From the NCBI GenBank assembly GCA_903836465.1, contig CAILRB010000066.1, positions 1 through 64,000 on the forward strand: a stretch of 64,000 bases of DNA, written 5' to 3'. The notes under the pieces are model-generated. The model was not told where the DNA came from. It ran no database searches and saw only the letters and a program-made list of their open reading frames with translations. The stretch's first letter is position 1, and the number at the start of each line of letters is the position of its first letter. This stretch comes from an uncultured Chlorobiaceae bacterium (GTDB lineage Bacteria > Bacteroidota > Chlorobiia > Chlorobiales > Chlorobiaceae). Shown here piece by piece: positions 11,648-13,918 of this stretch. Made by a program: the position numbers and the translations under genes.

Positions 11648-13918
11648 TTACGGTACGAAGACAAGGCGGAAACCCACAAAGTTGAAACAGCCCACAGGAT
11701 CGCAACTGCTTCGATAAGCTGACCGGCAGTCCCTGGCCCCGCTGTCCCAGCCTCCGCCTCGAAGCACATGGTTCGAACCTTTTGCCTGGTTATCAGGGTT
11801 TGTAACTATGCCTTTCGATCTGCATTCGTCATAAAAACTCCCTTCAAACCTGTCAAGGCACAACTCCCAGACATTGCCATGCATATTATAAAGACCCCAG
11901 GTATTTGGAGTAAAGCTGTCAACCGGGACAGTATTTTTTCTGAACATCCCTTTTTTATAATTATTGTAAGGGTAATCCCCATTATAGTTTGCCTGTTCCG
12001 TAGTAAGATTGTCTCCCGTAGTGAATGGCGTCGATGTAGCGCCACCTGCGCGACAGGCATACTCCCATTCTGCTTCAGTCGGAAGCCTGAATATCTTGCC
12101 TGATTTCTCTGACAGCCATCTGCAATAAGCATCAGCATCATTCCAGCTTACATATAATACAGGATGGTTATATTCCTCTGGTTGTCGTTCCTTACCTGAC
12201 GGCCCATTCCGCCAGTTTAAGCTCTCTTTTTCTCTCGATTCTTTTCCATCCCAAATACCGCTGCAGTTTTCTTTTTCGGCGTCGGTCTGATACTTTGAAT
12301 TTTCTATGAATTTTTTAAAATCAGCTACAGTAACAACATATTTACAAAAATAAAAATCAGAAAGCCTGACAAGATGTTTTGTTTCTCTTTCTTTTATTCT
12401 GTCAATTTCATTTTCAGGACTTCCCATTAAAAATTCACCGCCTTTTATCGGTACATAATTCATTGAGAGAAGTGATGTTGGAGCCATTATTTCCGAACAA
12501 AAATTTTTTGTCATATCCATGCCGAAAAATTCAAATCGTATTGCAAAATCAAAGTTGTTAGAAGAAAATTGGTTATTGATTTCTTTTGCCAACAAATATT
12601 CAAGAATTGATTTATGTGCAAATTTCCAATTCAAATTTGCGTCGCAGGTTAATAACGATTTCCCTGTTGCCTCATCAGGCGATAAGTCATAACCACACTC
12701 AGATGCTATTTCTATGGCCCTTTCTTTTGAAATATGTAAAACACCATCAGTTATCCATTTATTATAGATTTCAAGTGCTACATTTATTGAGAATTTTTGT
12801 AAAGCATCAATAAAAATTTTTCTATCACTTTCTTTTTTCCATTTTTTGCTTTCACGTTCCAGCCATTTTTCAATAAGTGTTTCAAAAATTTGAGAACTAC
12901 TGGTATACACCTTTTCATCCTCTAACAGATAATCCATATAACTCATCAACATGGGACGAACCATAAGATTTTTGCTGTTTTTAACAATCTGCAAAGCAAT
13001 TTCTTTTTTTCTTCCATGACGGTATTTCAGAATACTATAACCGTATTTTCGATCCAGATACTTATGCACATCGGTATCAGAAAACGGAAAGATGTAATAT
13101 TTCTGAAATTTATGACGCCCTCGACCATCTCTTCTTATGCTCAGCTCATACAAGTCATCCTCTTGTTGCGGGAAATATTGTGTGCGACAGGTAATAACAA
13201 CCTCCTTATACCTGCATGTATCAGTAACAATTTGACTCACTCGTTGCTCAAATGCGCTTTCATCTGAGACGGATTTGTCTTTTGAAAAGATAAACGGGTC
13301 TTCATCAAGACCATCCAGTAAAAGAATTGTATTTGAAATATCATCACAATTCATTTTTTTTATTCTCTCCAGAATATCATCAGGTTTATCAGCATTCAGA
13401 CTTTGAAAACGGAGCAGTTTGATAGTATATCGCTTGCCAAACAGAAAATTTATATACGAATAATTTTGCAGATATAAATTAAGCATAAAGGCAGTTTTAC
13501 CCATTCCAGAATCTGCCAGCACAAGATAATACTTGTTATGTTCAATATTTTCATTGAACGATCTCTTTAACATAAAGTCTATAAGATCATAGGGTTGACC
13601 GGTATGTTTGTATACTTCACTTGGATTATCATACCTGTTCGGTGATTTTTCCGCTGCGGTTGTCCTGATAAAAATTTTACTTAAATCTTTTATATAATCC
13701 ATTTCAAATTCAGGCTTCAGATCCCTTGCTTTATTAATAATCCCATGCCATTCAATCAACTGTTTAAACTTTTTTCTGACAAAATAAACAAGTGAACCTC
13801 CTGAAGAAAAAACAATAATCAGCGAGAATAAATAAAAATAGTTTTCATCAATTCCCGTCAACTCCAGAAGTTTATTAAAAAAAGGTAATTTGGCAAGTTC
13901 TTCAAATATTTTATTCAT
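11648..13918 (-). CDS. Membrane-anchored NACHT NTPase with C-terminal FGE-sulfatase (C-type-lectin fold) domain
   Basis: A 756-residue multidomain protein. One membrane segment lies near 27-48 ([16 protein letters not shown], flanked by RKKFK). A NACHT-type STAND NTPase follows, with Walker A ADSGMGKT at 135-142, Walker B [10 protein letters not shown] near 197 and a sensor-like [10 protein letters not shown] near 240. A helical segment spans about 300-480. From about 485 there is a formylglycine-generating-enzyme-like domain ([58 protein letters not shown]). The domain is probably a ligand-binding C-type-lectin fold, not an enzyme. The N-terminal two thirds are AT-rich compared with neighbours, suggesting transfer. 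This STAND architecture suggests a conflict or sensing role; the C-terminal tail looks retroelement-diversified. Confidence 0.85.
   Translation of the reverse strand: [756 protein letters not shown]
11660..11767 (-). other. Candidate DGR variable region at the 3' end of the NACHT-FGE gene
   Basis: The last about 36 codons encode VLRGGGW, then [23 protein letters not shown] and VGFRL. Known diversity-generating retroelement targets have the same frame with Asn codons in a template ([19 protein letters not shown].GFRL). Here the positions expected as AAC/AAT read GAC, AGC, GAC, TAT, AGC, AGT, TGC, GAT, GGC, TGT, TTC and TTT. In these codons the first two bases vary while the third stays C or T, as adenine-specific mutagenesis predicts. 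One codon (GGG) does not fit an AAC/AAT origin. No template repeat or reverse transcriptase was found in this window. Confidence 0.6.

Follow-up and report, generated by a model that had tools for sequence, protein, structure and literature searches.

Receptors in which a signalling ATPase is joined to a variable lectin tail have been described in multicellular bacteria, where STAND/NACHT proteins carry lectin tails diversified by diversity-generating retroelements (DGRs) that can also act in trans (Dore et al., 2024; PMC10907252). FGE domains have been linked to DGRs and to conflict systems (Kaur et al., 2020; PMC7159879), and for the BPP-1 DGR it was reported that an element 3' of the variable region (VR), equivalent to the one discussed below, is needed for efficient homing (PMC3240598; PMC12875486).

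DGR-diversified NACHT-lectin sensors are therefore already known, and the Chlorobiaceae receptor analysed here is a member of that kind that fails the tests of an active target: it has non-adenine mismatches to the templates, lacks the 3' element and shares its variable codons with its ortholog, while one feature of active targets, a reverse transcriptase (RT) with a template, is present in its genome (contigs C71 and C94). At a probability of roughly 80%, we regard the receptor as a former DGR target that was left stranded with a housekeeping gene on either side and has been retained in a fixed form.

Predicted architecture of the receptor

The window, i.e. the whole 64-kb stretch that was analysed, belongs to a draft genome of 2.77 Mb (G000; 107 contigs, 99% complete) and carries on its reverse strand an intact open reading frame of 756 amino acids (11648-13918). 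A candidate transmembrane helix was read from the sequence at residues 27-47 (13778-13840), where the structure model places a helix at residues 25-67. It is followed by the Walker A motif DSGMGKT (residues 136-142; 13493-13513), which is invariant in 15 homologues, and by the NACHT-type Walker B ILLLDGLDE (DGhDE pattern; residues 198-206; 13301-13327), of which D202, D205 and E206 are invariant in 15 homologues. The C-terminal ~270 residues match the Pfam family FGE-sulfatase (PF03781) with 200 bits, above the cut-off, and the FGE or C-type lectin-like domain (residues 488-753; 11660-12457) has sequence matches to human FGE (2aft; E 3e-33) and to TvpA, a DGR variable protein of Treponema (2y3c; E 2.5e-11). 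The tail of the gene (11649-11779) would be a retired variable region, a drifted homologue of DGR VRs, judging by its template mismatches and the codons it shares with the ortholog.

For the middle part, the Pfam profiles nSTAND3 (19.6 bits against a curated cut-off of 27.2; E 8e-4) and NACHT (13.4 against 26.7; E 0.07) stay below threshold, and the best PDB matches of the predicted NTPase fold are NOD2, NLRP3 and NLRC4 (Foldseek; E 6e-9 to 2e-7, from a model of moderate confidence). FGE is among the Foldseek matches as well; the lectin half of the model has low pLDDT, and the FGE assignment rests on sequence. Motifs and model together identify the middle part as a STAND NTPase of the NACHT type, and the whole protein as a predicted membrane-anchored STAND NTPase with a C-terminal FGE/C-type-lectin sensor domain. 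An earlier note, made from the DNA sequence alone, had proposed a NACHT/STAND protein with a DGR-type lectin-fold tail, which the Walker motifs, the NOD2-like fold and the PF03781 match bear out. PADLOC returned no match for the receptor; by analogy with the described sensors, it may act in immunity or sensing.

Active DGRs elsewhere and a tail that is inherited

Neither an RT nor a template lies in the 64-kb window, as the earlier note had stated; all RVT_1 and template matches fall on other contigs, where the proposed genome-wide search for a DGR RT was successful. The motif GNLTSQ is typical of DGR reverse transcriptases, and five RT frames in the genome bear it (C71, C94, C30, C90 and a partial frame on C12). 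On C71 and C94, an RT with both GNLTSQ and YxDD is directly followed by an Asn-rich template of the receptor's tail type, that of C94 encoding a tail that contains SANRNWNTPDNRNNN. Relative to the C71 template, the tail C77b is changed at 0 of 104 non-adenine and 17 of 27 adenine sites, and the tail C77a at 1 non-adenine and 18 adenine sites, with one codon deleted. Relative to the C94 template, the tails on C73 (0 non-adenine, 14 adenine changes), C94 (1 and 17), C50 (1 and 17) and C59 (2 and 16) follow the same pattern. By these comparisons no fewer than six paralogous tails are rewritten by the two DGRs, for the most part in trans, each of them differing from its template at 0-2 non-adenine sites. 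A single template serves several target architectures in trans: NACHT-FGE proteins are among them and so, judged by eye, is a TIR-like FGE protein on C73. A protein with an HRDC-type domain adjoins the C71 RT. The DGR and target loci of this genome lie on C71, C94, C77, C50, C73, C59, C30, C90 and C12 (L016-L024, L163-L165).

The receptor's own tail is of another character. Against the C71 template, the best one in its genome, it has 21 mismatches at 104 non-adenine sites and 17 at 27 adenine sites, and against the C94 template 23 non-adenine mismatches; 14 of the 21 fall on third codon positions. This contradicts the proposal that the tail departs from an Asn-rich template at first and second codon positions only, and a repeat matching the tail except at adenines was not found among the templates of the genome. 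The observation that third bases remain C or T at nearly all variable sites stood up, as, among the 12 codons that correspond to AAY in the templates, 11 end in C or T (binomial p=0.004 against the gene body). The supposed fingerprint of adenine mutagenesis was upheld in part: there is an excess of changes at adenine sites (17/27 against 21/104 at others; p=6e-5), but a similar excess occurs in a group of FGE tails that no template matches (G051, G054, G079), the G054 copy showing 15/29 adenine and 26 other mismatches to the best template of its genome. For this reason the excess is not taken as proof of a DGR past, and taken alone it is not diagnostic of DGR ancestry. That family (G051:C6, G054:C93, G079:C68; L065, L070, L073) is conserved in three species with neither a template match nor the 3' element, and is proposed to be another fixed, or never diversified, set.

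In a survey of 86 family genomes, 42 template-like and 81 variable tails were collected. Most variable tails differ from a template in the same genome at 0-3 non-adenine sites, whereas the tails of the receptor and of its ortholog match none of the 42 templates, with at least 18 non-adenine mismatches each; the ortholog's tail has 20 non-adenine and 20 adenine mismatches to the template of its own genome (G069). Two further orphan tails in the window's genome, on C54 (L023, 8472-8602, reverse strand) and C86 (L022, 1991-2121, forward strand), have 13-14 non-adenine mismatches to the genome's templates and a still recognisable 3' element, and may be targets of a template that has since disappeared.

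The ortholog (G069:C5) is syntenic, with 88.4% nucleotide identity over 7.3 kb and 88.5% identity in the gene body; a contig scan for further orthologs returned only this copy, from uncultured Chlorobiaceae bacterium VK3_bin-0348, whose genome has an active-looking DGR of its own (C39 target with 0 non-adenine mismatches to its template). In this comparison, which comprises one ortholog and one assembly per species, both of them drafts (107 and ~140 contigs), the two receptors are identical at 10 of the 12 codons that are AAY (Asn) in the template. Five control pairs of template-matching orthologs, with bodies 85-99% identical, share 0-3 of 12 variable codons, the sharpest (G066/G074) sharing 1 of 12 with bodies 99.1% identical, and across 946 pairs of template-matching VRs no more than 7 of 12 are shared. 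Differences between the two receptor tails affect 14 codons synonymously and 6 non-synonymously, and dN/dS is 0.12 overall, 0.11 in the tail and 0.06 in the NACHT part. The tail has thus been inherited and not rewritten since the species split, the protein has been maintained, and it is under purifying selection. Upstream of the receptor, an 82-aa open reading frame (14040-14288, reverse strand) is 43% identical in the ortholog, against 91% for the neighbouring NACHT part, and is proposed to be a fast-evolving or decaying small gene.

Alternatively, the tail might still be an active target, or have been one until recently, with its template absent from the assemblies. Two features of these data would suit this reading: a private template could lie in an assembly gap of either draft, and codons 739-745 hold five of the six amino-acid changes seen between the two tails, which could hint at a late local change. 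Yet third bases differ as well at codons 739, 742 and 745, which adenine mutagenesis leaves unexplained, 10 of 12 variable codons are the same across species while change is mostly synonymous, the receptor lacks the 3' element, the best of the 42 family templates still has 18 non-adenine mismatches, and the genome is 99% complete; a missing template is accordingly very improbable.

A past diversification of the tail is inferred from the tree and not from a matching template. The clade of the receptor and its G069 ortholog is sister to the template-matching C77a with support of 100/100, and since this sister and most other NACHT-FGE genes in the tree match a template, it is more parsimonious to assume that diversification was lost than that it never existed. 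This bears on the alternative that the tail was never diversified, the receptor being an ordinary FGE paralogue from the lineage that supplied the DGR targets, a reading to which the lack of a template match, the similar adenine-site excess of the template-less family and the occurrence of FGE folds in many non-DGR enzymes would lend themselves. Against the tree position and the NNY-type codons at 11 of the 12 variable sites, we hold it to be unlikely. Least credible is a fusion of an NTPase with some unrelated FGE-like enzyme that has nothing to do with DGRs; the clear FGE family match would suit it, but C77a, likewise a NACHT-FGE gene, is 59% identical to the receptor over the whole alignment and carries a tail copied from the C71 template with adenine mutations, which strongly disfavours it. 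On a separate branch of the tree, another NACHT-FGE orphan (G059:C30; L094) has 24 non-adenine mismatches to its own templates and no 3' element, so that retirement with loss of the flank, apparently independent in this case, seems from the sequences to have happened more than once.

The missing 3' element, the antisense template spacer and the insertion site

Directly after the stop codon of template-matching tails, defined as those within 6 non-adenine mismatches of some template, stands a conserved element of about gtcagttggcagctcattccggctttgcttttgagcgagag, often with a small hairpin with a GAGC loop. It follows 50 of 53 template-matching but only 7 of 21 orphan tails (p=1.2e-7), and it is absent right after the stop of the receptor and of its ortholog; the receptor's flank scores 7, compared with 18-41 for nearly all matched VRs and a mean of 6.6 for shuffled sequence. 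At the junction (11645-11650), the receptor's stop TAA on the reverse strand abuts the stop TGA of an LL-DAP aminotransferase gene on the forward strand, the two convergent genes lying with their stop codons flush and no VR 3' element between them. On the strength of non-adenine drift, identity with the ortholog and the missing flank, the reading of the receptor as an active target in trans was rejected, and the hypervariable, self-diversifying receptor that had been envisaged is not supported for the present, given no template match in 86 genomes, no 3' element and 10 of 12 codons shared with the ortholog. Where the earlier note had left the choice between action in trans and a stranded target, the latter is favoured for the receptor, and trans action is seen on its sister genes and not on the receptor itself.

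In three relatives (G035, G044, G060) the site is free of the receptor, and the aminotransferase gene and nnrED face each other across a gap of 41-80 bp. From this empty site it follows that the receptor was inserted before the two species split, and it arrived or settled there without a 3' element. As to the transfer that had been suspected from the AT-rich body, the empty site shows arrival by insertion, and base composition is a poor guide to a recent event: among the 10 family genes that were compared, 7 have a GC of 0.32-0.36 in the NTPase part and all ten reach their highest GC in the final 300 nt, and an AT-rich body as a sign of recent transfer was rejected, low GC being common to many family members. 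Several relatives carry other content after the aminotransferase, and in G058 (C40; L194) a different FGE-tailed gene occupies the gap before nnrED (window 11648-14557), which is possibly an insertion hotspot.

The flank after the variable tails has a counterpart on the template side. In nearly all templates, the sequence that follows on the 3' side (gctcaaaagcaaagtcggatgactgcc) reads as the reverse complement of what stands behind the variable tails, so that over ~30 nt the spacer right after a template is antisense to the sequence immediately 3' of its cognate VRs (L018, L019, L024 and other loci of the family). Over 40 template-target pairs the antisense score is 19.7 for cognate and 17.7 for shuffled pairings (sd 0.23), with 0 of 1000 permutations reaching the cognate value, a count that is not an exact probability as the pairs share ancestry. 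When templates of one genome are set against each other, the cognate one scores above the non-cognate one in 46.5 of 48 comparisons, and at least four sequence classes co-vary on both sides (ctcaaaagcaaag/ctttgcttttgag, ctcaagagtaaag/ctttactcttgag, ctcaaagtaaag/ctttactttgag and ctcaaggggaaag/ctttccccttgag). With RNA parameters, the C71/C77 spacer-flank duplex is worth about -56 kcal/mol. The same test is negative in the C30-type DGR of the window's genome and marginal in BPP-1 (score 14, with the shuffled 99% value at 13). The pairing may represent RNA-guided docking on the target or, alternatively, RNA-RNA pairing in operon transcripts. That the complementarity guides mutagenic homing, also in trans, and that the receptor is a natural loss of the docking site that froze one allele, we put forward tentatively, as a proposal with somewhat less than even prospects. 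In the literature searched, to which the main DGR survey did not belong, no description of antisense spacer-flank pairing was found.

The favoured history would run as follows. In the receptor family of the Chlorobiaceae, the last ~40 codons of the genes are rewritten by DGRs acting in trans or in cis, and the receptor of the window would be an ancestral target of these. It would have come to lie between the aminotransferase gene and nnrED before the two species split, its stop flush with that of its neighbour, and this stop-to-stop placement would have removed the 3' recognition element needed for retrohoming. No longer overwritten, the tail would then have drifted at synonymous sites, while purifying selection would since have kept the receptor at a fixed specificity. 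In this order of events, as we infer it, flank loss comes first and drift second, so that the former is cause and not consequence.

Significance and comparison with known systems

The receptor offers a clean natural comparison between DGR receptors that are still rewritten and one that is fixed, and it suggests that in DGR systems a variable allele can become a heritable receptor through loss of a 3' target element, a fixing of one allele that is similar in outline to the fixing of an antibody. With 42 template-like and 81 variable tails including orphans, the birth and death of DGR targets become countable, and the antisense pairing of spacer and flank, if functional, would help to explain how targets are chosen in trans.

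Closest in kind are DGR 3 and DGR 6 of Thiohalocapsa PB-PSB1 (PMC10907252), putative antigen sensors that likewise combine a STAND NTPase with a C-terminal C-type lectin, the FGE subtype being stated for DGR 6 as it is found in the Chlorobiaceae receptor. PB-PSB1 and the Chlorobiaceae are alike in having the VR at the C-terminus of the target and several targets per genome, and in both trans action is deduced from a perfect match at non-adenine sites (PMC10907252). The receptor differs in matching none of the templates sampled, in having no 3' element and in evolving under purifying selection; the non-variable target of PB-PSB1 DGR 1 still matches a template at all non-adenine sites, which the window's receptor does not. 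With human FGE and TvpA (2aft, 2y3c) the receptor shares a homology of its C-terminal domain that is detectable in sequence, and it differs from both in that its lectin domain, whose FGE likeness is one of sequence, is fused to a membrane NACHT NTPase. The BPP-1 DGR of Bordetella phage (PMC3240598; PMC12875486) has its VR at the 3' end of the gene and an element relevant to homing after the stop, as the Chlorobiaceae family does, but its target is a phage tail protein and not a receptor. Furthermore, the stem of BPP-1 can be swapped in sequence as long as its structure is kept, whereas the Chlorobiaceae targets conserve the sequence of their flank, which is antisense to the template spacer.
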